Below are positions 22,816 to 61,150 of a stretch of 64,000 bases of DNA, one piece after another; position 1 is the first letter of the stretch; every line of letters begins with the position of its first letter. The DNA is from Bretschneidera sinensis (lineage: Eukaryota; Streptophyta; Magnoliopsida; Brassicales; Akaniaceae): the NCBI GenBank assembly GCA_023935145.1, contig CM043703.1, positions 26,001,727 to 26,065,726 of the forward strand. The letters are read 5' to 3'. Both the position numbers and the translations under genes were made by a program. The notes below the pieces were generated by a model. It was not told the origin of the DNA and ran no database searches. It was given only the letters and a program-made list of their open reading frames with translations.

Positions 22816-24463
22816 TGATGAGAGTCATAAAATGCATCTAAACAATACTTAATTGTTAACATTTTAGGGTTGATCTTGGTCGTAATCGCACTTTTACATG
22901 TTGATAACTCTAAAGTGATATTCATAAATCATTGACTTAATTCGATGCATTTTCAGGTGCTTTGAGTACAAAAGAGATAATAAAGCGATCCATGTTTAAA
23001 GCACCAAAAGATCTTGGGTGTCGGTGCTCGTTTTTGTCTAAGGTTTAGACGTGTCCAAACATGATTCAAAGATGGTTAAACTCTAAACTAAGGCTGGAGT
23101 AATAAAGTACAGTAAGTTAAAAGACTGCACACAAGTGTGTGCATCACTTTGGAGCAAGTTAAGGGTAGGCACACTAGTGTGTGCACTTCTGCATACAAGC
23201 TGAAGAAGTTTCACTGAATTGCCAGAATTTCCCGTACAGATCAATCATCTTTGCAGATTAAACTGTATTGATGTAGGAAGAACCAGATGATGAACCATAT
23301 ATGCTTAGAAAGATCCGGAAGTCTATTTTCTGGAGAATTTTACGGTTCGTAAAAAGGATTTTTCTAGAGAAAGTTATGGCAGTTTTAGTGGAAACAGTTC
23401 AGGCCAGCACAGCAGGCCCAGACGCACAGCAGGCCCAGGCGCACAGCACGGCCCACTCGCCTCTTGACCGGATTAGGGCAAGCAAATGACATTCTCCAAG
23501 ACCAAAACACCCCCCTCATGCTCTATAAATATATCTTTATGGAGTGTGCAGCTGGGTATTGAAGAGAGAAAGCAAGGAAGAGAGAAAAAAGAGAGGATTC
23601 AAGGGATCCAAATCCAGCATTCTTCCATTTTATTTCTAAGTTTTCTTTGGTTGCAAATCAAGGGGAGAACATCCATATTGTTCTTCCACCTTGAACTCCA
23701 TGGCCAAATCAAGGGGAAAGCATCCTTATTGTTCTTCCACCTTGATTTCCATGGCCAACTAATCATTTTACAAGGGAAAGAGATGAATCTTTAGGGATTT
23801 CTTGTTCTTTATTTCTTGTTCTTGATTCAGTTGTATGGATTTATTGTTAAATATTGTTTATGAATTATTCATTGATTAAGTAAGAAGATTTGAGTTCATG
23901 TGATAGATGTACTTCTTATTCTTCTTCTTTTAGACTCTCTTAATCCGGTTATTGCATCCTTCTCCTCCATTGAGGTTGCTTGGATGTGATTGATTCCGGT
24001 AGATTTATCTTATTGATTGTCCATTATTGCGATATTGTCTTTTAAGATATATTGTCATTTCTTGATAATCTTTAAGATCGGTCATGTGTGCATGAACCGA
24101 AATCAATGATTAATTCGTAGCAATTATATAAGAATTGTAAATGTGCTTGATTGAATATATTCCGATTGCTTGTTTGGGAGTTGAAACTTGCAATCGAGAT
24201 AAAATCAATTGAATCAAGAGTGGAAATAGGGAACAAACCTAAGGAGGATTCCCGGAACCTTGTTATTTCTCATTTATATTTCATTTACATTTACGCAATT
24301 TTCCTTTACATTATTTCACCATCAAAGCTTAAAAATCTTGAGTTTAACTTTTATCGTTCGTTTTAAGGTTCACACATTTTCCTTTGTACTTAACTTGTTT
24401 CCCTGTGGAATCGACACCCCAAAGCCGTACTACAATAACCGTGTTATACTTTGGGCGTAATCA
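22816..24463 (+). mobile_element. Element C, 5' LTR
   Basis: Begins TGATGAGAG and ends GGGCGTAATCA; 1,648 bp. By eye it is identical to the 3' LTR except for a 14-bp stretch near 23,812-23,825 absent from the 3' copy. A TATAAAT box is at 23,524-23,530. U3 contains two CACAC-WA-GTGTG near-palindromes (23,127-23,142 and 23,169-23,184) and short CAGCAGGCCCAG(A/G)CGCA repeats (23,409-23,450). The leader contains a ~57-bp duplication around 23,650-23,757. Target duplication ATACT occurs at 22,811-22,815 and 33,668-33,672. Confidence 0.95.
23524..23530 (+). promoter_or_regulatory. TATA box of element C 5' LTR
   Basis: TATAAAT about 45 bp downstream of the GC-rich U3 repeats. The identical copy in the 3' LTR is at 32,742-32,748. 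Transcription would start some 25-35 bp downstream. Confidence 0.6.
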
Positions 24464-24466
24464 AAT

Positions 24467-24486
24467 TTTGGCGCCGTTGCCGGGGA
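24467..24486 (+). promoter_or_regulatory. Element C primer binding site (tRNA-Asp)
   Basis: TGGCGCCGTTGCCGGGGA lies a few bases after the 5' LTR end and complements 18 nt of the 3' end of plant tRNA-Asp(GUC), including the CCA. Use of tRNA-Asp is typical of Athila-lineage elements. Confidence 0.85.
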
Positions 24487-24595
24487 AACGCTCTTAAGTA
24501 TAAGAAAACTTGTCAACTTTTAGTGTGACGGTAAAAAAAAAAAAACCAAAAAAAAAAATCGTAAATATTTTTCTTTTCAGCAGTTTGTAAATGCG

Positions 24596-24870
24596 GCAAT
24601 ATTATTCCTTTACTTTTGTTTTGATTTTCTAATTTTCTTTTATTATTCTGTTTTTATTTATCTGTTTATTATTTTATTCTGTTTTTATTTACCTGTTTAT
24701 TATTCTGTTTTATTATTCTGTCTATTATTCTGTTTTTATTTATTTGTTTATTATTCTGTTTTATTTATCTGTTTATTATTTTGTTTTTATTTATCTGTTT
24801 ATTATTTTGTTTTTATTTATTTGTTTATTATTCTGTTTTATTTATTTATTCTGTTTTATTTATTTATTCC
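24596..24870. repeat. Low-complexity leader of element C
   Basis: About ten imperfect copies of a ~25-bp unit built from TTTATTTATCTGTTTATTA and TTCTGTTTT, between the PBS and the gag-pol start. Pyrimidine-rich and free of ATG for most of its length. Confidence 0.8.
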
Positions 24871-24890
24871 CCCTCTAAATTAATTGGTGC

Positions 24891-27800
24891 ATGCTTAGAC
24901 CGAGAGATTCGCGAGGTAGATTCATTAGAGGACCCGAATTAGAGTTACCCTCTCATTCCACCTCCATTGGTGAAACCTCGCCTAGATCAAACCATAGTGC
25001 ACCCCCATCAGAGAATTTAGAGGATTTTGTTAACATGGCTGAAAATCCTAATGAGAATGGTGCTAGGACACTTAAAGATTATCTACATCCTAGCCGGACA
25101 GCCACACCATCGTGCATTATGTTTCCAGCCAATACCCGTCATCAAGATTTTAAAACAGGGATGATACAACTTCTCCCTACTTTTCATGGCATGGAAAACG
25201 AGAACCCCTATGTGCACATTAGAGAATTTGAGGAAGTAGTTGCGACTTTCCATAGTCACGATGCAACTGATGATATCGTGAGACTCAAGTTTTTTCCTTT
25301 CTCCTTAAAGGATAAAGCTAAGAGTTGGTTATACTCACTGAGACCACGATCAATTGGGTCATGGAATGAGATGACCCAAGTCTTTTTTAACAAGTACTTC
25401 CCTCAACATAAGACTAACGCTTTGAAAAGACAAATCTCCACCTTTGCACAAAAGGAAAACGAGACTTTGTATCAGTCTTGGGAGAAATTTAAAGAGCTGT
25501 TAAGTATGTGTCCACATCATGGGTACGAAAATTGGCGTTTAGTGAGCTATTTCTATGAGGGTCTTACCTATAGAGAACGTCAATTTGTTGAGATGATGTG
25601 TAATGGAGAATTTCTGCAAAAAGACCCTGATGAGGCTATTGAGTACCTCAATGAGCTTGCTGAGAAAGCTCACACATGGACTGGACCTAGTGCTACTGAG
25701 AGCACAAATAGGTCACGACCTAGTGGTGGAGGAATCTACCATCTTAGGGAAGAGGATAACCTCAAGGCCAAGGTCGAAATGCTTACTAGAGAGTTGGAGG
25801 CATTAAAAATGAAAAAACCAACACACATAGTTAATCAGGCCGAACCTTTAGAATCATGTTTTGTGTGTGGCGGGGTTGATCATCCCGCCCAAGATTGTCC
25901 CACTTTTGTTGACATGAGAGGGCTGTACGAGGAACAATGCAATACCTTAGGCATGTACAAGAAGCCCTCAGCACCCTTCTCTAACACTTATAATCCGGGG
26001 TGGCGAAATCACCCCAACTTCAGTTGGAAATCTGAAAATCAGCAGCATGTGCAGCCCCCTAGATCATACCCAGCACCTTATCATGCACCCTCATCTTCTA
26101 GGAACTCTTTAGAAGACTCCTTACATACTTTTATAGAAGCACAAGGCAAGACAAACCAAAAGTGTGAGGCATTAATTACACAGTTGGTTGAGGAAAACAA
26201 AGAAATAAGGAGCCAAGTGTCTAAATTGATGAACTCCTTGAGTGTGACTGAGCGAGGTAAGTTCCCTGCTCAAGCTCAGTCCATACCTCACGGTCAACAT
26301 ATGGCACAAGAAAATGTGAAAAATGTAAATGCCATTGTGACCCGAAGAGGTAAGTCACTACACATTCCACCAGAGAATAAACCCGAGAATGTGAAGTGTC
26401 AAACCAGTAGTGAGACCAAGTTGCCTAAAGACCCTGAAGTGACCCAAAGTCCTGTTAAGGCCCCATTCCCCCAAGCCTTAAAATCCAACAAGAAAAATCT
26501 GGAAATGAATGATGAAATCCTTGAGAACTTAAGGCAAGTGAAACTTAATCTTCCCCTTTTGCATGTGATTAAACAAGTCCCCACCTATGCAAAAGTTCTC
26601 AAAGATTTATGCACAATTAAGAGGAAACATCATGTCAAGAAAACAGCTTTCCTAACTGAGCAAGTTAGTGCACTAATTGAGCAAAGAATTCCCCCGAAGT
26701 ACAAAGATCCGGGCTGTCCTACCATTGCTTGCAGCATTGGAAATCATGAGGTTGGACAAGCCTTACTAGATCTGGGAGCTAGTGTAAACCTGATGCCATT
26801 TTCAATTTACCTACAGCTGGGGTTAGGAGAAATCAAACCAACCGGCGTGGTATTACAATTGGCTGATCGCTCAGTCAAGGTACCCCGAGGTGTGGTTGAG
26901 GATGTTTTGATTCAAATTGATAAATTTTATTATCCTGTTGATTTCTTAATTCTTGATACTACTTCTGCTGTAGACACTAACTCTAAAATTCCTTTGATTT
27001 TGGGTAGACCTTTTCTTGCTACTGCAAATGCTCTAATAAATTGTAGGAATGGTCTCATGAAACTGTCCTTTGGCAACATGACCCTTGAAGTAAATATTTT
27101 CAATGTTGCAAAACAGCCCGAAGATGAGGACGAAAACCACCAGCTTTACATGATCGAGTCACTCGTCAATGAGGGAGTTTTCTTAACTCATGATTATGAC
27201 CCTCTTGAAAATTTTCTTGTTAATTCTGAGATAGATTTATTTGATGATAAAACTGATATAATTGATATATGTGTTGTTTTTGACAAATCTCAGGATTATG
27301 GAAATCGGGCATGGCAACCAAGGTTTGAGGAGCTGCCCGAAAGAAGCAAGACTCAAGTCCCCTCAAGTGTGGAAGCACCTAAAGTCGAATTGAAGCCACT
27401 ACCTAAGGGTCTAAAACATGTCTTTCTCGGTCCAGGTGATACCTTTCCTGTTATAATTTCTTCTGAATTAACTGAGACCCAAGGTAAGAGATTAATTCAA
27501 ACTTTAAATGAACACAAATCAGCCTTGGGATGGAGCATGGCTGATTTAAAGGGAATTAGTCCCCTAATCTGCTCCCATAAAATAAATCTGGATGAAGGAA
27601 CCAGTCCTCGTAGAGACCCTCAACGTAGGCTTAACCCCACTATGAAAGAAGTAGTGAAAAATGAAGTACTGAAACTATTAGATGCGGGTATTATATATCC
27701 TATAGCTGATAGTAAGTGGGTAAGCCCTACGCAAGTCGTCCCGAAAAAGTCCGGAGTCACTGTGATAAAAAATGATCTAGGAGAGTTAGTCCCTACCAAA

Positions 27801-30284
27801 CTTGTGAACGGGTGGCGTGTGTGCATTGATTACAGAAAATTAAATGCTGCCACCAAGAAAGACCACTTCCCACTCCCTTTTATTGATCAAATTCTTGAGT
27901 GTGTAGCTGGTCATCCCTTCTACTGTTTTCTAGATGGTTATTCTGGTTACTATCAAATAGAAATTGCATTAGAAGACCAAGAAAAGACCACCTTTACTTG
28001 TCCCTTTGGCACCTATGCTTTTCGTAGAATGCCATTCGGATTATGTAACGCCCCTGCTACTTTTCAACGCTGCATGATGAGCATTTTTAGTGACATGGTT
28101 GAAAATTGCATGGAGGTTTTTATGGATGACCTAACTGTTTTTGGATCTTCATTTGAAACATGCTTATTGAATTTAGAAAGAGTATTAATTCGCTGTGAGG
28201 AAAAAGAATTGGTTTTAAATTGGGAAAAGTGCCATTTCATGGTACCATCCGGTATTGTCTTAGGGCATATTGTCTCTTCTAAAGGAATAGAGGTTGATCA
28301 ATCTAAGATTGAGTTAATCTCTAAGTTGTCTGCCCCTAAGACAATAAAGGATGTGAGATCTTTCCTTGGTCATGCTGGTTTTTATAGGAGGTTCATACAA
28401 AATTTTTCAAAAATATCTAGACCACTATGCGCCCTCCTAGTTAAAGATACCCCCTTTGAGTGGAGTCAAGCTTGTCAAGAGGCCTTTAAAACGTTGATTG
28501 GCAAGCTTACTTCCGCACCTATAATGCAGTCGCCAGATTGGACTTTACCTTTTGAAATCATGTGCGATGCTAGTGACTACGCTGTAGGTGCTGTTCTTGG
28601 ACAGCGAAGGGAAGGTAAACCTTTTGTCATTTACTATGCTAGTAAGACTTTAAATAGTGCTCAAATGAATTACTCTACAACTGAAAAAGAGTTGCTAGCT
28701 GTAGTATTTGCTTTAGATAAATTTCGTGCTCATCTAATTGGTTCTCCTATCCTTATTTTTACAGATCATGCAGCCCTCAAGTATCTTCTTACGAAAAAGG
28801 ATGCTAAGGCACGACTAATCCGATGGATCCTCCTCTTGCAAGAATTTGATATCACCATCAAGGATAAAAAAGGAGTGGAGAACGTAGTAGCTGACCATTT
28901 ATCCAGACTCACTTTTGAGGACACTTGTGATGACATGCCAATCAAAGATGATTTTCCCGATGAGCAATTACTTTCCATTACTTCTCTACCATGGTTTGCT
29001 CACATCGTAAATTATTTGGCTACAGGTGAGATACCTATGGATTGGAGCGCTCAAGACAAGAGGAAATTCTTATATGAGGTACGTAATTTTTATTGGGATG
29101 ACCCCTATCTTTTCAAGTACTGCCCTGACCAAATTCTAAGGCGTTGCATCCCTAATGAAGAGATTTCGAGTGTCTTAGAATTTTGTCACTCCCAAGCTTG
29201 TGGAGGCCACTTTTCGATGAAAAAAACCGCTGCAAAAATTTTGCAGTGTGGATTTTATTGGCCTACTTTGTTTAAAGATACAAACACCTATTGTCGCTCA
29301 TGTGAAAGATGTCAAAAGTTAGGAGCTGTGTCTCGCCGAAATATGATGCCCCTGAACCCTATTTTAGTGATTGAAATCTTTGATTGTTGGGGCATCGATT
29401 TCATGGGACCCTTCCCTCCTTCCTTCGGGTACCAGTATATCATTGTAGCAATAGATTATGTATCCAAGTGGGTAGAGGCAGCAGCTTGTCGAAACAATGA
29501 TAATGGAACGGTGATTAAATTCCTTAAAGAAAAGGTGTTATCTCGATTTGGTACACCACGTGCTATAATTAGTGATCGAGGTACACATTTTTGCAACCGT
29601 TCCTTTGAAGCTTTAATGAAAAAATTTGGGGTATTACATAAAATCTCTACTGCCTATCATCCTCAGACTAGTGGACAAGTAGAGCTTGCTAATAGGGAGA
29701 TTAAACAAATTTTAGAAAAAACGGTTAACCCCGATCGCAAAGATTGGTCTTTGAGACTAACTGATGCGCTTTGGGCTTACCGTACAGCCTTTAAAACTCC
29801 CTTAGGTATGTCACCCTATCGGCTTGTTTTTGGAAAGCCTTGCCACTTACCCGTGGAGCTCGAGCATCGAGCTTATTGGGCCATCAAGTCTTTCAATTTT
29901 GACATGGGCGAAGCGGGTAAACTTCGAAAATATCAGCTGACCGAGTTAGAAGAATTAAGAAATGATGCTTATGAAAATTCTAGAATCTATAAGGCTAAGA
30001 TGAAAGTATTCCATGACAAAAACATTTTGAGGAAAACATTTAAACCCAATGATCGGGTATTCTTATACGACTCTAGACTTCATAAGCATCCTGGAAAACT
30101 TCGGTCAAGATGGACCGGCCCTTTTATAGTAAAAAATGTTTTTGAAAATGGGGCGGTAGAAATTGAGGATACTAGAGATGGTCGGGTCTTTAAAGTAAAC
30201 GGTCAACGACTTAAGATCTTAATTGATAGACATGATCCGGAGATGGAAGACATTCCGCTTATGGATCCGGTCTATTCACCTTGA
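24891..30284 (+). CDS. Element C gag-pol polyprotein (Athila-lineage Ty3/gypsy), intact
   Basis: A single 1,797-residue ORF that would provide capsid and all enzymes for retrotransposition. In order: gag about residues 70-265 ([37 protein letters not shown]); CCHC knuckle 323-336 ([14 protein letters not shown]); aspartic protease with DLGAS at 627, the Athila variant of DTG/DSG; reverse transcriptase about 930-1140 with FMDD at 1077-1080; RNase H with catalytic D1226 ([13 protein letters not shown]); integrase with an HHCC zinc domain and a DDE triad at D1503, D1562 and E1598, the last two spaced by 35 residues; and a C-terminal GPF-type module. No stops or frameshifts. The ATG is the first long-frame start after the leader, and gag begins about 50 residues later. 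Gag and pol in one frame means no frameshift signal is needed. No env-like ORF follows. Confidence 0.95.
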
Positions 30285-30593
30285 CCACACAACAAAGGTA
30301 CGTTATTCCTTTTAATTTTTGTTCTGTTTTTAGTTAGTTTTCATTCAATCTTAATTATTAGTTTTTAGTTTACTTCAAATTTCAAAAAAAAAATATATAT
30401 ATATATATATATATTAATATTTCGTTGTCAAGTCTTTATTAACTTTGAATTTTGGTTGTGTTAAGTCTATTTTAATTTTTAGTTTCTAGTGATTTCAGCG
30501 AAAAGAACGGTATGCAGTTCAATTGGTGGTGCGCAATTTTCAGCTTTTGTGCATTTTTGGCCGCACAGGGAGTTTCCTTTCCTTTTTCTTTTA

Positions 30594-30607
30594 CATTGAG
30601 GTCAATG
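30594..30607 (+). other. Short hairpin before first G-run in C tail
   Basis: CATTG-AGGT-CAATG can pair into a 5-bp stem with a four-base loop. GGTTGGGGGTGG begins 10 bases downstream. The same arrangement recurs in B, D and F. Confidence 0.6.
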
Positions 30608-32019
30608 CAATGTTTAGGTTGGGGGTGGAGGAAACATATTTCTTTTTTTTTTTTTTTTTTTCTCATTGAACTGCTTGGTGTCACTTTCTTTCTTTTCGTT
30701 GTTAGGATAAAAAAAAAAAATTTGTTTGTTTGTTTTTAGCATGTTTTGTGTTAGCCTTGGAGTTAATTCACATGTCAATGATATGAGCTTAATCGAGATA
30801 GCATATAGCATTTAGAAGAAGTTAAATCTTGCTTCGCTTTGAGAATAAATTAAGTGTCAATTTTTCTTTGGTTTGAGACTCTGGTTTGTGGTAAGATTGC
30901 ATGATTAGTCTAAAGCATTTGGAAAAGTTTTATGCGCAGTTGTTTTGTGAATACTTTTGCGGTCTCTACAAGCTCTAGAACTTATTTAATAATCACTTGA
31001 GGCGAAAATCATTGAATGCACACTACTTAGGATATGATGTAGGCCATTTTTGGACCGTTTGAGCCTTTTTAAACTTACCCTTGTTATATTTATCGCTAGT
31101 CACCTATTTGAGCCTTTTTCTTGAAAAGAAAAATTGAGCCTTGTTTCTTTCGATAAACCATTTACTTATCTTTATGAGCCCAAAAATATTTTATCCTTAC
31201 CTCTCTTTTAAAAGAACTTAGTTATACACATTTTGTGAGAAGCACTTAATAGGAGTAAGGGTGGAAATATGAGAAAATATTACTATCATAACCCAAGTAC
31301 ATTAAAAGAGATAAGTTGGGGGTTGTGGAAAAGAAAAGAAAAGAATGAAAGAGGAGGTGAATGGTCTTATGCCAAAACAAAAAATAAAAAAAAAATGAGA
31401 AAAAAATGAATTATGGCAAAGAAAGAAAAAAAAAATGGTGATTTATTGCCAGAAATGCTCGAAAAATGGTTGAAAGAGTTGGGTTTTGAAGTAAGGTTAT
31501 CTTGTGCTTAAAGTGGTTGTGTTTAAATTAAGAGACTTAGTTCTTTTATTTGTTTAAACTTTCCCATTCTTTCTTGACCTTTACCCTAGCCTAATGTTGC
31601 AAGCTTATTAAAGACCTATTGATCCGATGAAGTGTGATTTTTCTACATAGTGGAGAGTGATTTGAAAAGTGAGCATATGGAGCTTGATTTGTGATTGATG
31701 TCACGCAAATTAATATGTTTTTAGAGGCCAAGACTTGTATTCATGCTATGTTGTGCATAAAATCATCTAGGTGTTCGGACTAATGTATTGTGGTAAGATG
31801 GATGGTAAGAGTCGATAACGATTTTAAGGTTGACATTTGGATTATTCTTGGACCTGAGTGATATTTAATGATTCTATGTGCTGTATGTTATGCATGATTT
31901 TTGAGATAGATTTTTGAATCACTCTTGGTTAACGCCAGCATTGCTGTATTTTGTTTTGATTTCTAAATAAAGAATTCATTTCATGCCTTTCGCTTGAATT
32001 GCTAGGGACTAGCAATAAG

Positions 32020-32033
32020 CTAGTTGGGGGTTG
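32020..32033 (+). promoter_or_regulatory. Element C polypurine tract
   Basis: CTAGTTGGGGGTTG immediately before the 3' LTR start TGATGAGAG; the site that would prime plus-strand DNA synthesis. Confidence 0.8.
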
Positions 32034-33667
32034 TGATGAGAGTCATAAAATGCATCTAAACAATACTTAATTGTTAACATTTTAGGGTTGATCTTGGTCG
32101 TAATCGCACTTTTACATGTTGATAACTCTAAAGTGATATTCATAAATCATTGACTTAATTCGATGCATTTTCAGGTGCTTTGAGTACAAAAGAGATAATA
32201 AAGCGATCCATGTTTAAAGCACCAAAAGATCTTGGGTGTCGGTGCTCGTTTTTGTCTAAGGTTTAGACGTGTCCAAACATGATTCAAAGATGGTTAAACT
32301 CTAAACTAAGGCTGGAGTAATAAAGTACAGTAAGTTAAAAGACTGCACACAAGTGTGTGCATCACTTTGGAGCAAGTTAAGGGTAGGCACACTAGTGTGT
32401 GCACTTCTGCATACAAGCTGAAGAAGTTTCACTGAATTGCCAGAATTTCCCGTACAGATCAATCATCTTTGCAGATTAAACTGTATTGATGTAGGAAGAA
32501 CCAGATGATGAACCATATATGCTTAGAAAGATCCGGAAGTCTATTTTCTGGAGAATTTTACGGTTCGTAAAAAGGATTTTTCTAGAGAAAGTTATGGCAG
32601 TTTTAGTGGAAACAGTTCAGGCCAGCACAGCAGGCCCAGACGCACAGCAGGCCCAGGCGCACAGCACGGCCCACTCGCCTCTTGACCGGATTAGGGCAAG
32701 CAAATGACATTCTCCAAGACCAAAACACCCCCCTCATGCTCTATAAATATATCTTTATGGAGTGTGCAGCTGGGTATTGAAGAGAGAAAGCAAGGAAGAG
32801 AGAAAAAAGAGAGGATTCAAGGGATCCAAATCCAGCATTCTTCCATTTTATTTCTAAGTTTTCTTTGGTTGCAAATCAAGGGGAGAACATCCATATTGTT
32901 CTTCCACCTTGAACTCCATGGCCAAATCAAGGGGAAAGCATCCTTATTGTTCTTCCACCTTGATTTCCATGGCCAACTAATCATTTTACAAGGGAAAGAG
33001 ATGAATCTTTAGGGATTTCTTGTTCTTGATTCAGTTGTATGGATTTATTGTTAAATATTGTTTATGAATTATTCATTGATTAAGTAAGAAGATTTGAGTT
33101 CATGTGATAGATGTACTTCTTATTCTTCTTCTTTTAGACTCTCTTAATCCGGTTATTGCATCCTTCTCCTCCATTGAGGTTGCTTGGATGTGATTGATTC
33201 CGGTAGATTTATCTTATTGATTGTCCATTATTGCGATATTGTCTTTTAAGATATATTGTCATTTCTTGATAATCTTTAAGATCGGTCATGTGTGCATGAA
33301 CCGAAATCAATGATTAATTCGTAGCAATTATATAAGAATTGTAAATGTGCTTGATTGAATATATTCCGATTGCTTGTTTGGGAGTTGAAACTTGCAATCG
33401 AGATAAAATCAATTGAATCAAGAGTGGAAATAGGGAACAAACCTAAGGAGGATTCCCGGAACCTTGTTATTTCTCATTTATATTTCATTTACATTTACGC
33501 AATTTTCCTTTACATTATTTCACCATCAAAGCTTAAAAATCTTGAGTTTAACTTTTATCGTTCGTTTTAAGGTTCACACATTTTCCTTTGTACTTAACTT
33601 GTTTCCCTGTGGAATCGACACCCCAAAGCCGTACTACAATAACCGTGTTATACTTTGGGCGTAATCA
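32034..33667 (+). mobile_element. Element C, 3' LTR
   Basis: 1,634 bp, TGATGAGAG..GTAATCA. Identical by eye to the 5' LTR except that it lacks a 14-bp stretch (after 33,025), which in the 5' copy repeats a CTTGTTCTT-type unit. The four short ORFs inside it repeat exactly those of the 5' LTR. Followed by target duplication ATACT. Confidence 0.95.
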
Positions 33668-40204: not shown

Positions 40205-41558
40205 GTGTAGTATTCTAGGGAGAGTCTGGCTAAAGACATAAAACTTAGCGCTCATGGGAGGCACCCCATAGCTTATCTTTTCTTTTATTTATTTATTATT
40301 TCGTATTTTTATGATTAATGTTTGTTTCCAGTATTTTTTATTTTCCAGTTTTTATTTTTCAGGGACAAAAGCGTACTTCAGTTCAAGTTTGGGGGTATGC
40401 TATGAGCCATACCAGTCCAGATAGTTCTCCATATCTCAGGTCAGCTCTTTCCATATTAGTCACACATTGTGGTCAATGTGTAATTTAAGTTTGGGGGTAT
40501 GGGAGACACATCACACACTTTGTCCTAATTTGTTGTCTTTTCGTCATAGAGATAAATGCATGCTCATGTTATCGTGAAATTTTGGTTGATCTAAACATTT
40601 TCTGTGATGTGATGTCATTGGTGAGCTTAACATTTTGAACACATGATCTGGTGATAAATTTTTATTTTGGTTGATCTAAACATTTTCTGTGATGTGATGA
40701 CATTGGTGAGCTTAACATTTTGAACACATGATCTAGTTACTTACTTTAGGCATTTTGAGAATTCACATGTTTGATCTGATCTAGCACGAGCACATTAGCA
40801 CAAATTATGTGAGGTATGACACGTAATTTTAATGTGTATTTTTCCTTATCTTAACTGAAACTGGATGACTTGTTGGATGAACTCTTGGGCATAGGAAAAT
40901 ATAAAAAAAAAATTATTATTATCAATAAACTTTTCGCTGAGTAACTGGACCTCTTGCCTCAGTAAGCAGTGAGTGTTCACGTCAAAAGGTGGAATTTTGC
41001 TTGGTAATATTAAGGTCGGTTTAATTTCGTAGCCTTTTTGACTCGAGTTAGTAAGTCCTTAGGGGTGTCTTTACACCTAATGCCCTAAAACCACCTGGTT
41101 TGGGAGTCATTGACTTAACACTCGCTACATGGGTCAATTAGAAAGCTCAAGGGAGCTAAATATAGTCGTGCCTTAATAAAAAAAAAAAGAGAATAAAATA
41201 AAAACTATGCCTTTTCGTTCATTTTTGATGAGAAATTCGGTGAATCTTGAGACATGGAGACCTTACACATTAGAGTTACTTGGAAGCTTCATTTTTATAT
41301 GCTAATTCACCTTACACTGATTCAAGCTTGTGATGCCTTATCCTGCCTTTTGTAAGTAATTAGATTTTAACATTTCTATTCATTGCGAAGATGGGTTCAC
41401 CTTTTTAAGCTTGCTTATGAATGAATATCATGGTGATGTGTGCTCCTTAAATTTTTGGATACCATGAGTGATGACTTTATCTTTATGTTCTTTGTTTTTC
41501 ATTGAGTCTTTTATTTTGTTTTGCTAAGGGACTAGCAAAATATAAGTTTGGGGGTATT
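40205..41558 (+). other. Element B post-pol non-coding tail
   Basis: No coding potential. Three AAGTTTGGGGGTAT tracts lie at 40,385-40,398, 40,487-40,500 and 41,544-41,558, the last being the polypurine tract. A hairpin is at 40,462-40,481. A ~71-bp direct duplication has copies at 40,579-40,649 and 40,664-40,734. A block CTGGACCTCTTGCCTCAGTA (40,945-40,965) is shared with D and F. GTCTTTACACCTAATGCC near 41,071 is also shared with D and F. Confidence 0.7.
40462..40481 (+). other. Hairpin before G-run in B tail
   Basis: ACACATTG-TGGT-CAATGTGT is a perfect 8-bp stem with a four-base loop, five bases before AAGTTTGGGGGTAT. Confidence 0.7.
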
Positions 41559-49648: not shown

Positions 49649-50309
49649 TAGTTCATACCACATGCATATGTTGATCAGGCAAACATATATGAGGAATTCA
49701 ATAAAATATGCATTAATCAAGTTAAGCATCATAACACAGCTATCGCAAAGGCAACAATATTCATATATGGAAAAACATAATCAGGGCTTCAATGGAGCCC
49801 TACAAAAAGTTTAGTTACACATGAGTTTGATGTTAAACATCTTCATAAAATAAAATAAAGGAAAGAAAAAACTCGGAAATACTTCCTAGACGAGTCGTCA
49901 ATTCTTCTCCAAAATCTCTCTCTCGGGAAGCTCCCTTATTTCTATGTTTATAGGCCTATTTATAAGGTTTAGAGACCTCTGAAAACCTTAACTTGTAAAA
50001 CGAAACCCTACTCGTACTTTCTAAAATAAGTTCTGCCGTTTTACTGCACGTATGCACTCGATCTTATACTGGTGCACTTGAGCGCACCTTATTCTTGCAC
50101 GCACGAGCGCCGGTGCGCTCGATCGAACACATCTGTGCTCTATTGCACTAAACAACTTTTAGTTCTTCCAGCTTTGTTCTCTAATCCAGATGATGTTCCT
50201 TTTTCTTCAATAACCTAGGAAAATACAGAAAAACATAAAATAGCATGAAATAACACAACTAGGAACTTAACAAATGTAAATTAAGGGGCTTAAATATAAG
50301 CACTTATCA
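49649..50309 (-). mobile_element. Element F, 3' LTR, proximal part
   Basis: On the minus strand the LTR starts TGATAAGTGCTTATATTTAAG at 50,309, next to the polypurine tract. It contains CG-rich near-palindromes (50,045-50,135) and a TATA box at 49,958-49,964. Length with the distal part, excluding the solo LTR, is about 1.24 kb. Confidence 0.7.
50045..50135. repeat. CGATCGAGCGCAC-type motifs in F's U3
   Basis: Reading the plus strand: GCACTCGATC, GCACTTGAGCGCACC, GCACGAGCGC and GTGCGCTCGATCG. These are the same motif family as the B array, again about 80-180 bp upstream of the LTR's TATA box (minus strand). Confidence 0.7.
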
Positions 50310-51480
50310 CACCCCCAAACTTACATATTGCTGGTTCCTTAGCAATACAAAACTTAAAAAATAAATGAAAAATAAATAACACAAAGATAAATCCATCATT
50401 CACGATATCCAAAAGTTTAGGTCGCACACAAAATCATGTTATTCATTCATGAGCAAGCTTAACATATAAACCCATTTTTGTAATAAATAGAAGTTTTAAA
50501 ATTTAATTACTTATGAGATACAGGTTAAGGCATCATAAGTCTGACTCAGTGTAAGTGATCTAACACATAAAAAATGAAGCTTCCAAATAACTCCAATGTG
50601 TACTGTCTCCATGTTTCAAGATTAATTGAATTTCCTATCAGAATGAACAATAATGACATAGTTTTATTTCCTTCTTTATTTTATTATGAGACTTTACTAC
50701 ATTTAGTTCCCTTAAGCTTTCTAATTGACCCATGTAGTGAGGGTTGAGTCAATGACTCCCAAACCAGATGGTTTTAGGGCATTAGGTGTATAGACACCCC
50801 TAAGGAGTTACTAACTCGAGTTAAAAATGCTACGAAACTAAACTGTCTTATTGCTACCAAGCAAAATTCTCACATTTTGATGTGAACACTCACTGCTTAC
50901 TGAGGCAAGAGGTCCAGTTACTCAGTGGAAAGTTTATTTAATGATCATTACGAGCATTTTTTTTTCTCTTTTTGTGTAATAATTTTTTTCTACTTTTCTA
51001 TGCCAAAGTGTTCATTTAACAAGTTATCTGATTATAGTTAAGCCACGGAAACATACATATTAAAATCACATGTCATACCCCACACAATTATGTGCTAATG
51101 TGCTCGTGTTAGATTAGAACAAACATGTGAATTCTTAAATGCCTAAAGTAAGTACTAAGCTTTAAAGCTTTATTTATCACATCATGTGTTCAGGATTTTA
51201 AGCTTTATTAATGAAATCATATCGTAGTATTTGTTTAGATCAACCAAAATTCAAAACAACATGAACATGCATTTATCTTTTAGACAATAAAAAAAAATTG
51301 GGACAATAGTGTGTGAAAATGTGTGTGAATGTGTCTCCCATCCCCCCAAACTTAATTTACACATTGTCCCCAATGTGTGAAAATCATGGAAAGAGCTGAT
51401 CTGGGAGATGAAGAACTAGCTAGGCTTGTCATGGCTCATAGCACGCCCCTAAACTTGAATTGATACACATATCAACCCTG
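50310..51480 (-). other. Element F post-pol non-coding tail
   Basis: Reverse-complement counterpart of 40,385-41,558. It has the polypurine tract (50,310-50,322), G-run copies at 51,341-51,353 and 51,445-51,456, a hairpin at 51,360-51,377, the CTGGACCTCTTGCCTCAGTA block (50,902-50,921, reversed) and the CACCTAATGCCCTAAAACCA block (50,769-50,788, reversed). No coding potential. Confidence 0.7.
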
Positions 51481-53630: not shown

Positions 53631-54931
53631 TGATGAGAGAAAAATATTGCATATTTTGGTCACTTAATTTACATTTGTTAGCTTAGGATTTTGTTACTTT
53701 GAGTTGTTTTCGTTGTTTTTCAGGTTTACAAGCACTGGGAAAGGAGTTTCACTAAAATTGCCAGAATTGCCTGTACAGATCAATCATCTTTGAAAATTAA
53801 ACTGTATTGATTCAAGAAGAACTAGGATATGAGCTATATATGCTTAGAAAGATCCAGAAGTCTATTTTCTGGATAATTTTACGACTCGTAAAAATGATTT
53901 TTCTACAGAAAGTTATGGCTGTTTTAGTAGACAAAGGTCAGGCTATGCGGGCTGTGCGAGATTTCAGCGTGAACAGAAGTTTTGAAGGGCATGTGAAGAC
54001 TTAAATCCCACATCCCACATCGGTTGGAAACACATTTCTATATCCCACATCCCACATCGGATCGGAAACACATTGCACTCGTGGTATTTGCCTATATAAG
54101 ACCCACTCCACTTCATCATTCAGTGTACAATTCCTGGGCCACTTTGGTGTTAACCGGTGGACGTCCGTTAGCATTCTGGTGGATCTCGAAGGCTTTGTCA
54201 CCACGAGGGGAAGCTCTGCTCGTCAGCGAGTGGAATTTTTTCCATGTAAAGTTATTTATTTATTTCTTTACATTTAGTTGTTTTAGTTTAAATGTTTAGC
54301 ACTTTTATTATGAATTGTAGTTTCATAGTTATGAGTGGCTAGACTCTTCAGCTAAGGTTGAAGATGAAGTCCTGCCATTGTTTGGCGTAGTAGTTCAGGT
54401 TTGCTTGTACAAATCTGACATTTTTTAGTATAAATGTTCTGTCAATTATTTGAGTTAATTTTGTGATTGATTGAGTTTAAATTGTTCTGTTGGATATTCC
54501 TTGTGTTTCATCTGATGGATACATCGAATTGTTTTCTATTAAATTGGATTTCCTTTGTTATTTGTTAAGAGCGGATACATTGGATGCTTTTGGTTTGATT
54601 GGGATATTCTTTGTTTTTTGTCTTATAGTTGGATTCATGGAATTTTTTTGATAGGCTATCTTTAGAACATAGAGATATATGCTTAACTTTGGCAGGGTGG
54701 ATTCAGAAACCTTAGTGTTTTTATTATTAGTTTTTTTTAAAATAAATTTAGTTTAGTTTTAATTTGTTTTCCAAAATATCATTCAAAATTCGGAACTAGG
54801 TTAAGATAAAGTTAGTTTAGATTAAAAATATATTTTCACAACGCAATTCCCTTGTGGATTCGACCTCGCACTTGCACAACACTATATTGCAAATGACTTG
54901 TGCACTTGCGAGTAAATTAAAACTCACAACA
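53631..54931 (+). mobile_element. Element D, LTR 1
   Basis: TGATGAGAGAAAAATATTGC to AAAACTCACAACA; 1,301 bp. TATATAAG box at 54,093-54,100, preceded by two copies of TCCCACATCCCACATCGG (54,006-54,023 and 54,043-54,060). U3 53,746-53,943 closely matches element C's U3 at 23,207-23,405. R/U5 matches B. The 5 bp to the left, CTTGG (53,626-53,630), recur after LTR 3. Confidence 0.9.
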
Positions 54932-56764: not shown

Positions 56765-58129
56765 TGGGTCTGGCTAAAGATATTAAACTTAGCGCTCATG
56801 GGAGGCACCCCACAGCTTATCTTTTCTGTTTATTTATTATTTCGTATTTTTATGATTAATGTTTGTTTCCCAGTTTTTTTATTTTTCAAGGACAATGCGT
56901 ACTCCAGTTCAAGTTTGGGGGTATGCTATGAGTCATGCCAGTCCAGATAGTTCTCCATATCTCAGGTCAGCTCTTTCTATATTAGTCATATATTGGGGTC
57001 AATGTGTAATTTAAGTTTGGGGGTATGGGAGACACATCACACACTTTGTCCTAATTTGTTATCTTTTTGTCGTAAAGATAAATGCATGTTCATGTTCATC
57101 TAAAAATTTTGGTTGTTCTGAAAAATTGTGATGTGATTTCATTGGTGAGTTTAAAACTTTGAACACATGATTTGATGATAGAGTTTAAACTTTAGTTACT
57201 TACTTTAGGCATTTTAGAGAATTCACATGTTTGATCTAATCTAACACGAGCAAATCAACACATATTTGTGTGAGGTATGACAAGTGAGTTGAATGTATAC
57301 GTTTCCTTGTCTTAACTGAAACCGGATGACTTGTTGGATAAACACTTGGGCATATATATATATATATAAAACAACTAATACTACTAATATTTATAATGAT
57401 CATCATCAATAAACTTTCCACTGAGTAACTGGACCTCTTGCCTCAGTAAGCAGTGAGTGTTCACGTCAAAAGGTGGGAATTTTATTCATAATGATCATTG
57501 CGAAACTTTCCGCTGAGTAACTGGAGCTCTTGCCTCAGTAAGCAGTGAGTGTTCACGTCAAAAGGTAGAATTTTTCTTGGTAGTATTAAGGCCGGTTTAA
57601 TTTCGTAGCCTTTTTGACTCGAGTTAGTAAGTCTTTAGGGGTGTCTTTACACCTAATGCCCTAAAACCATTTGGTTTGGGAGTCATTGACTCAACAATCG
57701 CTATATGGGTCGATTAGAAAGCTTAAGGGAACTAAACATAGCAGAGCCTTATATATATATATAAAAAAACTATGCCATCGTTGTTCTTTCCGACGAGAAA
57801 TTTTGTGGATCTTGAGACTTGATTACCTTGTACATTGAAGTTATTTGGAAACCTCATCTGTATATGCTAAATCATTTTACACTGATTCAAGCTTGTGATG
57901 TCTTACCATGCCTCTTGTAAGTAATTAGGTTTTAAATTCTTATTCATTGTGAAGATGGGTTGGACTTATTTAAGCTTGCTCATGAATGAATCTCATGATT
58001 TTGAATGCTCCTTAAATTTTTGGATACCATGAATACTGAACTTATCTTTATGTTCTTTGTTTTTCATTTAGTTTTATTTATTTATTTTGTTTTGCTAAGG
58101 GACTAGCAAAATGTAAGTTTGGGGGTAGT
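56765..58129 (+). other. Element D post-pol non-coding tail
   Basis: Same layout as B: G-run copies at 56,911-56,924, 57,013-57,026 and 58,115-58,129 (polypurine tract), with a wobble-paired hairpin at 56,988-57,007. The conserved ACTGGACCTCTTGCCTCAGT block is tandemly duplicated here (57,411-57,478 and 57,503-57,569). Short (TA)n runs are at 57,354-57,367 and 57,751-57,763. Confidence 0.7.
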
Positions 58130-59428
58130 TGATAAGAGAAAAATATTGCATATTTTGGCCACTTAATTTACATTTGTTAGCTTAGGATTTTGTTACTTTG
58201 AGTTATTTCCGTTGTTTTTCAGGTTTACAAGCACTGGGAAAGGAGTTTCACTAAAATTGCCAGAATTGCCCGTACAGATCAATCATCTTTGAAAATTAAA
58301 CTGTATTGATTCAAGAAGAATCAGGATATGAGCTATATATGCTTAGAAAGATCCAGAAGTCTATTTTCTGGAGAATTTTACGACTCGTAAAAATAATTTT
58401 TCTACAGAAAGTTATGGCCGTTTTAGTAGACAAAGGTCAGACTGTGCGGGCTATGCGGGATTTCAGCGTGAACAGAAGTTTTGAAGGGCATGTGAAGACT
58501 TAAATCCCACATCCCACATCGGTTTGAAACACATTCTATATCCCACATCCCACATCGGAAAGGAAACACATTGCACTCGTGGTATTTGCCTATATAAGAC
58601 CCACTCCACTTCATCATTCAGTGTACAATTCCTGGGCCACTTTGGTGTTAACCAGTGAACGTCCGCTAGCATTCTGGTGGATCTCGAAGGCTTTGTCACC
58701 ACGAGGGGAAGCGTCACCCGTCAGCGAGTGGAATTTCTCCCATGTAAAGTTATTTATTTATTTCTTTACATTTAGTTGTTTTAGTTTAAATGTTTAGCAC
58801 TTTTATTATGAATTATAGTTTCATAGTTATGAGTGGCTAGACTCTTCAGCTAAGGTTGATGATGAAGCCCTGCCATTGTTTGGCATAGTAGTTCAGGTTT
58901 GCTTGTACAAATCTGACATTTTTTAGTATAAATGTTCTGTCAATTATTTGAGTTAATCTTATGATTGATTGAGTTTAAATTGTTCTGTTGGATATTCCTT
59001 GTGTTTCATCTGATGGATACATCGAATTGTTTTCGATTAAATTGGATTTCCTTTGTTATTTGTTAAGAGCGGATACATTGGATGCTTTTGGTTTGATTGG
59101 GATATTCTTTGTTTTTTGTCTTATTGTTGGATTCATGGAATTTTTTTGATAGGCTATCTTTAGAACATAGAGATATATGCTTAACTTTGGTAGGGTGGAT
59201 TCAGAAACCTTAGTGTTTTTATTATTAATTTTTTTAAAATCAATTTAGTTTAGTTTTAATTTGTTTTCCAAAATATCATTCAAAATTCGGAACTAGGTTA
59301 AGATAAAGTAAGTTTAGATTTAAAAATATATTTTCACAACGCAATTCCCTGTGGATTCGACCTCGCACTTGCACAACACTATATTGCAAACGACTCGTGT
59401 GCTTGCGAGTAATTTAAAACTCACAACA
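58130..59428 (+). mobile_element. Element D, LTR 2 (middle)
   Basis: TGATAAGAG to CTCACAACA, 1,299 bp, differing from LTR 1 at scattered bases. It is preceded by the polypurine tract and followed by a 9-base stub of the PBS (AGTTTTTGA), then directly by tail sequence. Confidence 0.9.
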
Positions 59429-59856
59429 AGTTTTTGATTAGAAAGCTTAAGGGAACTAAACATAGCAGAGCTTTATATATATATATATATATAAAACTAT
59501 GCCATCGTTGTTCTTTCCGACGAGAAATTCTGTGGATCTTGAGACTTAATTACCTTGTACATTGAAGTTATTTGGAAACCTCATCTGTATATGCTAAATC
59601 ACTTTACACTGATTCAAGCTTGTGATGTCTTACCATGCCTCTTGTAAGTAATTAGGTTTTAAATTCTTATTCATTGTGAAGATGGGTTGGACTTATTTAA
59701 GCTTGCTCATGAATGAATCTCATGATTTTGAATGCTCCTTAAATTTTTGGATACCATGAATACTGAAGTTATCTTTATGTTCTTTGTTTTTCATTTAGTT
59801 TTATTTATTTATTTTGTTTTGCTAAGGGACTAGCAAAATGTAAGTTTGGGGGTAGT
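59429..59856 (+). mobile_element. Element D, second and deleted internal region
   Basis: After the PBS stub the sequence jumps to ATTAGAAAGCTTAAGGGAAC, equal to 57,714 onward, and runs to the polypurine tract (59,842-59,856). Only the last ~420 bp of an internal region remain; gag and pol are gone. Confidence 0.85.
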
Positions 59857-61150
59857 TGATGAGAGAAAAATATTTCATATTTTGGCCACTTAATTTACAT
59901 TTGTTAGCTTAGGATTTTGTTACTTTGAGTTGTTTTTATTGTTTTTCAGGTTTACAAGCACCGGGAAAAGAGTTTCACTAAAATTTCCAGAATTGCTCGT
60001 ACAGATCAATCATCTTTGAAAATTAAACCGTATTGATTCAAGAAGAACCAGGAGCTATATATGCTTAGAAAGATCCAGAAGTCTATTTTCTGGATAATTT
60101 TACGGCTCGTAAAAATGATTTTTCTACAGAAAGTTATGGCCGTTTTAGTAGACAAAGGTCAGGCTGTGCGGGCTGTGTGGGATTTCAGCGTGAACAAAAG
60201 TTTTGAAGGGCATATGAAGACTTAAATCCTACATCCCACATCGGTTGGAAACACATTTCTATATCCCACATCCCACATCGGATTGGAAACACATTGCACT
60301 CGTGGTATTTGCCTATATAAGACCCACTCCACTTCATCATTCAGTGTACAATTCCTGGGCCACTTTGGTGTTAACCGGTGGACGTCCACTAGCATTCTGG
60401 TGGATCTCGAAGGCTTTGTCACCACGAGGGGAAGCGCCACCCGTCAGCGAGTGGAATTTCTCCCATGTAAAGTTATTTATTTATTTCTTTACATTTAGTT
60501 GTTTTAGTTTAAATGTTTAGTACTTTTATTATGAATTGTAGTTTCATAGTTATGAGTGGCTAGACTCTTCAACTAAGGTTGAAGATGAAGCCCTGCCATT
60601 GTTTGGCATAGTAGTTCAGGTTTGCTTGTACAAATCTGATATTTTTTAGTATAAATGTTCTGTCAATTATTTGAGTTAATCTTGTGATTGATTGAGTTTA
60701 AATTGTTATGTTGGATATTCCTTGTGTTTCATCTGATGGATACATCGAATTGTTTTCGATTAAATTGGATTTCCTTTGTTATTTGTTAAGAGCGGATACA
60801 TTGGATGCTTTTGGTTTGATTGGGATATTCTTTGTTTTTTGTCTTATAGTTGGATTCATGAAATTTTTTTGATAGGCTATCTTTAGAACATAGAGATATA
60901 TGCTTAACTTTGGCGGGGTGGATTCAGAAACCTTAGTGTTTTTATTATTAGTTTTTTTAAAATCAATTTAGTTTAGTTTTAATTTGTTTTCCAAAATATC
61001 ATTCAAAATTCGGAACTAGGTTAAGATAAAGTTAGTTTAGATTAAAAATATATTTTCATAACGCAATTCCCTGTGGATTCGACCTCGCACTTGCACAACA
61101 CTATATTGCAAACGACTCGTGTGCTTGCAAGTAATTTAAAACTCACAACA
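59857..61150 (+). mobile_element. Element D, LTR 3
   Basis: TGATGAGAG to ACTCACAACA, 1,294 bp, including a small deletion near 60,048. Followed by CTTGG (61,151-61,155), matching the duplication left of LTR 1, then by element F integrase sequence. Confidence 0.9.

Follow-up and report, generated by a model that had tools for sequence, protein, structure and literature searches.

A small hairpin precedes both the internal G-tract and the PPT beside the 3' LTR in several families of Athila-like elements

Extra PPTs have precedents in Sireviruses, Athila4, Calypso, Ty1 and HIV-1 (PMC2829016). In Athila4 and Calypso, the account in PMC2829016, which cites Wright and Voytas 2002, places one extra PPT in the linker. 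The Sireviruses, which belong to Ty1/copia, are described there with several identical PPTs in the linker domain and with an inverted repeat around the junction of the PPT and the 3' LTR (PMC2829016). For Ty3, no central PPT is known according to PMC5371799, and its PPT has been assigned to a base-paired region of its RNA (PMC11381356). Diaspora, an env-less relative of Athila, has been reported to contain one PPT 128 bp after pol (PMC1142308), and long post-pol regions are the subject of the Retand paper, in whose main text the word hairpin is absent (PMC11963269). How RTs choose the PPT among many purine runs was still described as elusive in a 2012 review (PMC3362945). Our analysis of a 64,000-nucleotide stretch of plant DNA (the window) and of its host genome reveals a hairpin-tract feature that is real, genome-wide, present in several element families and tied to PPTs.

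Four elements of the window, named B, C, D and F, carry this feature. In C, a single ORF contains gag, RT, RNase H and integrase in gypsy order, and in B, protease (just below the curated cutoff), RT, RNase H and integrase are spread across two ORF pieces (both by Pfam). Neither a chromodomain nor an additional RNase H was detected by Pfam at E<=0.001 in the C ORF or the B pieces. A tRNA-like PBS is located 5 nt after the LTR of C and presumably matches tRNA-Asp. Diaspora has its PBS 5 nt after the LTR, matching tRNA-Asp (PMC1142308), and the additional RNase H is a mark of Tat (PMC6317226). Judged by gag-pol order and by the lack of a chromodomain and of an additional RNase H in B and C, the elements appear Athila-like (Ty3/gypsy, OTA superclade). 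Element C (window 22816-33667) has LTRs that are 99.15% identical, an open gag-pol frame of 1,801 codons and a 5-bp target duplication, ATACT, and its insertion looks recent.

Hairpins followed by G-rich tracts in the post-pol tails of B, D and F, and in the differently built C, had been claimed in an earlier note on this DNA. Sequence inspection and pattern matching confirm all four hairpins, including the pairing of D through two G-U wobbles. For F, the stem and loop are as claimed; the extent, given as 51,360-51,377 on the minus strand, is really one base wider on each side. To each tract we applied a hairpin test in which the 42 nt upstream were compared with 500 dinucleotide shuffles (p<=0.05), and the p values below are from this test.

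40385-40398, plus strand: first G-tract of B (PPT1), AAGTTTGGGGGTAT; no significant upstream hairpin (p 0.410)
40462-40481, plus strand: internal hairpin of B, 8 bp, perfect, ACACATTG-TGGT-CAATGTGT; pattern match (p 0.006)
40487-40500, plus strand: internal G-tract of B (PPT2); match to AAGTTTGGGGGTAT
56911-56924, plus strand: first G-tract of D; match to AAGTTTGGGGGTAT (upstream hairpin p 0.788)
56988-57007, plus strand: internal hairpin of D, 8 bp including two G-U pairs, loop GGGT; pattern match (p 0.074)
57013-57026, plus strand: internal G-tract of D; match to AAGTTTGGGGGTAT
51359-51378, minus strand: internal hairpin of F, 8 bp, with the stem of B and loop GGGA; pattern match (p 0.016)
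51340-51353, minus strand: internal G-tract of F, AAGTTTGGGGGGAT; match to AAGTTTGGGGGTAT
30594-30607, plus strand: internal hairpin of C, CATTG-AGGT-CAATG, 5 bp (p 0.134)
30616-30625, plus strand: internal G-tract of C, AGGTTGGGGG; from sequence inspection and tail comparison
31313-31322, plus strand: middle G-tract of C, AAGTTGGGGG; without hairpin (p 0.964)

The sites in B, D and F fit one pattern with at most 3 mismatches (0.44 matches expected in the window; three found in 1 of 100 shuffles). Perfect 8-bp stems are common per se, 29 of them with loops of 3-6 being present in the window after arms of only two base kinds were dropped. What is notable is not an 8-bp stem as such but its recurrence at one place beside a G-tract.

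The window contains nine matches to AAGTTTGGGGGTAT at no more than 2 mismatches (0.68 expected), and these include tracts starting at 40385, 40487 and 41544 in B and at 56911, 57013 and 58115 in D, with an extra copy at 59842. The claim of three PPT-like tracts per tail holds for B, D and C, but the first tract of F is degenerate (AAGTTTAGGGG). The spacing proposed for B, D and F, about 102 bp between the first two tracts and a third about 1.03-1.10 kb on, is borne out by distances of 102, 102 and about 103 bp and of 1057, 1102 and about 1031 bp, respectively. The tracts of C, at 30616, 31313 and 32021, are spaced quite unlike these. Because the first tract has no significant hairpin, it is set apart from the other two, and for the same reason the three PPTs were rejected as a single system. 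Just before PPT1, at about 40355-40372 of the window, a long T-rich run ends in CAG or TAG and is followed by GG; a similar arrangement precedes the first G-tract at three other genomic loci (L161, L166 and L182; L numbers denote loci). This run resembles a 3' splice site and could serve a spliced RNA or represent the U-rich box of a PPT.

Overlooked in the earlier note is a second hairpin, located a few bases upstream of the terminal PPT that adjoins the 3' LTR.

41519-41540, plus strand: terminal hairpin of B, TTTTGCTA-AGGGAC-TAGCAAAA; from the stem list (p 0.008)
41544-41557, plus strand: terminal PPT of B; match to AAGTTTGGGGGTAT, with LTR-like TGATGAG from 41559
58090-58111, plus strand: terminal hairpin of D, TTTTGCTA-AGGGAC-TAGCAAAA; from the stem list (p 0.014)
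58115-58128, plus strand: terminal PPT of D; match to AAGTTTGGGGGTAT, with the repeated LTR from 58130
59817-59855, plus strand: duplicate of the D terminal hairpin (59817-59838) and tract (59842-59855) in a tandem tail-plus-LTR copy
50326-50347, minus strand: terminal hairpin of F, TATTGCT-AAGGAACC-AGCAATA (p 0.024)
50309-50322, minus strand: terminal PPT of F; match to AAGTTTGGGGGTAT, adjoining TGATAAG
31998-32016, plus strand: terminal hairpin of C, ATTGCTAG-GGA-CTAGCAAT; from the stem list (p 0.028)
32021-32030, plus strand: terminal PPT of C, TAGTTGGGGG; 3' LTR from 32034

An upstream hairpin is present at most of the LTR-adjacent tracts that were fetched (37 rows, including 3 that are not terminal PPTs). 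The tail and LTR of D are copied in tandem (window 57712-59428 and 59436-61150, 96.6% identical), so that D has three LTR copies, at 53631, 58130 and 59857; the copy likely arose by unequal recombination.

All genome-wide counts refer to the one host plant genome (1.21 Gb, 550 contigs). The pattern of hairpin and G-tract, CATTGNGGNCAATGN{2,25}AGNNTGGGGG, has 8,941 matches in it (4,386 forward and 4,555 reverse) and its reversed control has none; 7,934 copies are found when the spacing is fixed and the tract has the TTAAGT form. The tract TTAAGTNTGGGGG alone gives 13,476 matches, compared with 96 for its control. A sample of 30 loci, being the first 30 places of TTAAGTNTGGGGG on contig C1, was picked by the tract alone. 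By eye, the exact core CATTG-NGGN-CAATG is present in 22 of these 30 and a core with one or two changes in 6, among which L179 and L180 have a core broken by an A-A mismatch. The remaining two are L164, which is unrelated, and L181, which is cut off by foreign sequence. Near position 1500 of L181, the 5' half of the internal hairpin is replaced by the apparent 3' end of a C-type LTR, which looks like an insertion inside the hairpin.

We sorted the elements into families under labels of our own: family I (B, D, F, L160, L169 and many others), family II (L190 type), family III (L191 type), family IV (L192) and C as the fifth. Among ORF pieces located upstream of the module in families I-IV, protein searches identified RT, integrase or protease in 3 of 10 and returned no protein match for the other 7; for one family II piece, a search of solved structures gave no match. 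PPT1 was seen only in family I loci (20 of 30 loci compared), 97-100 bp before the internal tract. The letters of the internal and terminal tracts agree within each family, being GGGGGT in I and II, GGGGGA in III and IV and GTTGGGGGT in C.

A significant hairpin precedes 14 of the 19 tracts at internal (7 of 10) or terminal (7 of 9) sites, but only 1 of 7 further G-tracts of these sequences (L192, p 0.038). The misses are D (0.074), C (0.134) and L133 (0.112) among the internal sites, and L190 (0.140) and L192 (0.948) among the terminal ones. A stem beyond chance is thus found at the same place in several families. Its distance to the tract is narrow. Measured from the 3' base of the hairpin to the last G of the tract, in rows where the script found a hairpin, it is 16-18 nt for 45 of 50 internal rows and 12-16 nt for all 32 terminal rows. 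Genome-wide, 7,934 copies have the fixed spacing, compared with 8,941 at free spacing. From the terminal hairpin to the LTR the distance is 14-20 nt, which makes it a loose ruler.

Comparison of nine representative post-pol tails between families (blastn, family I counted once) reveals that tails of different families align mainly at two islands, the internal hairpin-tract and the terminal hairpin-tract with the start of the LTR. Of the 10 family pairs, the alignments recover the internal island for 8 (all but I-C and II-C) and the terminal island for 5 (I with II, III, IV and C; III with IV). Beyond the islands, families match each other in short stretches rich in A/T, and C also aligns with II or IV over segments of 84 to 136 nt. 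The recurrence claimed earlier for differently built elements is supported and extends beyond close copies of one family. Between B and C, 28% of RNase H-integrase residues and 41% of protease-RT residues differ.

Members of family I can be aligned along much of the tail, and in this alignment the internal island ranks 6th in identity among 1,434 windows of 34 nt, the terminal island only 291st. Windows at 41079 and 40954 rank 1 and 46, so the internal island is not the sole constrained part of the family I tail. These further conserved stretches belong to the non-coding tail of B (window 40954-41112), where small inverted repeats such as GTGAGTGTTCAC can be seen by eye. The sharing between families could also mean that the internal site is now functionless, a relic or ancient duplicate of the region around the terminal PPT, retained by descent. 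Such a relic would agree with the letters themselves being common to families beyond what pairing demands, and with the lack of a G-U excess in genomic copies described below. However, the surrounding tails have diverged so far that few other stretches align, and the high identity rank of the internal island within family I speaks against it as well; we consider this explanation quite unlikely.

Retention of the stem had been taken in the earlier note as a sign of an RNA-level role. The substitutions in genomic copies do not bear this out. Intact cores number 7,934 genome-wide, intact plus G-U-type cores 8,873 and intact plus A-C-type cores 9,040, which corresponds to 939 G-U-type against 1,106 A-C-type changes. 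Because the core is palindromic, transitions giving G-U and those giving A-C are expected about equally often under neutral decay, and the internal stem core shows no sign of kept RNA pairing in these copies. RNA-level selection as a conclusion from genomic copies was therefore rejected. As the copies are probably mostly dead, the comparison tells little about the source elements, and as the five core pairs are identical in the main type of each family, they carry no covariation.

Compensatory changes between families are present but few. The terminal stem differs on both sides between TTTTGC/GCAAAA (B type) and TATTGC/GCAATA (F type), and in family III between GCTA/TAGC and GCTT/AAGC. At pair 7 of the internal stem, most of family I has C-G, and II and III have T-A. 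Broken stems also occur, with C-A at pair 7 (L133 group), A-C at pair 8 (L130 group), A-A in L179/L180, and further cases in the sixth internal pair of C and in the terminal stem of L192. One terminal pair of family III is G-C in 244 copies genome-wide, G-U in 16, A-C in 13 and A-T in 3; the 3 compensated A-T copies compare with 0.85 expected if the sides were independent, though two of them are 46 kb apart and may be one event. The near-perfect inverted repeat of the stem and the lack of preference for G-U would suit a DNA-level dyad, for example the binding site of a dimeric protein. We find this very improbable, as the letters of the terminal stem vary between families with symmetry kept, which is ill-suited to one sequence-specific dimer, and as hairpin and G-tract hold one order and strand. 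Kissing-loop dimerisation was rejected because the loops seen are not self-complementary.

In many folds of single modules, the internal G-tract is paired with an upstream pyrimidine strand to form an outer stem. This raises the possibility of a larger RNA fold, with the hairpin at its tip and the G-tract and its 3' flank paired upstream, that serves RNA transport, stability or 3' processing. When the pyrimidine strand was shuffled 300 times in 19 modules, 9, 11 and 14 shuffles were as good in L169, L192 and L190, in favour of such a fold. The other 16 modules range from 29 to 166 (L208 29, L179 30 and the remaining 14 from 42 to 166; internal island), which counts against the fold, as a G-run pairs with any pyrimidine-rich strand. 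The outer stem was thus rejected as a claimed feature, being mostly no better than shuffles, and is kept only as a rival of low probability.

The loops suggest a further explanation, in which the hairpins are sites for the nucleocapsid of Gag, for packaging or RT loading, with the loop Gs exposed and the G-tract acting as a separate primer. Retroviral nucleocapsid binds G-rich hairpin loops, the loops here are mostly NGGW or GGGAC-like and thus G-rich across families, and the Gag of C contains a CCHC knuckle. However, packaging signals are usually located near the 5' end, and neither the narrow distance to the G-tract nor the second copy at the LTR is explained by nucleocapsid binding, which leaves this explanation unlikely.

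Of the roles that had been listed, secondary plus-strand priming has the most support; the shared islands, the hairpins at internal and terminal tracts, the narrow spacing and the family-matched tract letters speak for it. The terminal tract would prime plus-strand DNA, as its position at the 3' LTR indicates. The internal tract, just after pol, is built alike, with letters matched within the family and a hairpin of the same type, so that a second priming site is the simplest reading of it. We give about an even chance to the module being a hairpin-marked PPT that is used twice, as the 3' LTR primer and as a likely second plus-strand primer after pol. The hairpin would then be an accessory part of the primer site. 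In the working that we infer, reverse transcriptase, copying the RNA 3' to 5', would cross the G-tract and then pause at the hairpin a few bases on; the trailing RNase H domain would sit near the 3' end of the G-tract and cut there, and the RNase-H-resistant RNA of the G-tract would remain as primer. As a PPT acts in an RNA:DNA hybrid, in which the RNA hairpin is gone, any role of the hairpin must precede that stage. In HIV-1 RT, about 17-18 bp separate the two active sites. For Ty3 RT, this separation is about 13 bp (PMC5371799). Such an RNase H-to-polymerase distance agrees with the observed 12-20 nt, as a match in size rather than a proof.

Several observations speak against the priming reading. 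Five hairpins miss p<=0.05 (D, C and L133; L190 and L192), the other tract of L192 passes, the cores of L179 and L180 are broken and a G-U excess is lacking. In addition, as the internal tract is only 1.0-1.5 kb from the terminal one, the time gained from a second start would be small. A stricter form of priming, in which the hairpin is a structural ruler that stalls RT at a set distance and thereby brings the RNase H of the enzyme to cut the end of the primer, with the cassette used twice, seems to us rather unlikely. If it were true, the second strand of each element would start at two places flanking the post-pol region. Hairpin-tagged tracts beside untagged G-tracts of the same letters in one RNA would offer a direct test of template structure in primer definition, and the hairpin-tract could serve as a mark by which the 3' ends of very abundant elements are recognised.

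Searches of viral and bacterial contigs gave no cross-species evidence for the module. The hairpin with tract has one match in viral contigs (L129), with flanks unlike those of the module, and matches in 7 bacterial contigs with scattered spacing. The two terminal-hairpin patterns have 0 matches in viral contigs, and for a pol piece of B no relative was found there. The bare hairpin pattern occurs in at least 120 viral stretches; among the 121 occurrences listed, one has a G5 run no more than 44 nt away. Rfam at gathering score gives 0 matches in the window.

With Athila4 and Calypso, the elements described here share the broad lineage and the position of an added PPT, downstream of pol and ahead of the 3' LTR; they differ in that one extra PPT is mentioned for those elements, whereas in family I the extra G-tracts number two, and the hairpin comes in addition. 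The central or internal PPTs of HIV-1 and Ty1 are comparable as a second plus-strand start inside the element (PMC2829016, PMC5371799), but those PPTs are located in coding sequence and are presented in these sources with no mention of a hairpin, while the internal site here follows pol, at a distance of 1.0-1.5 kb from the terminal PPT. Our literature search, limited in coverage, returned no report of a hairpin at Athila PPTs or upstream of a plant PPT. The Sireviruses resemble our elements in that the PPT is present in several copies ahead of the 3' LTR and that an inverted repeat is conserved close to the terminal PPT (PMC2829016). In that repeat, as described, the left arm borders the PPT, the right arm is within the LTR and the upstream PPTs are without it (PMC2829016), whereas the small hairpin here is wholly upstream of the tract and marks the internal tract too. 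Extra PPTs are already known, and it is the paired hairpin-tract design that, as far as this limited search reached, is new.
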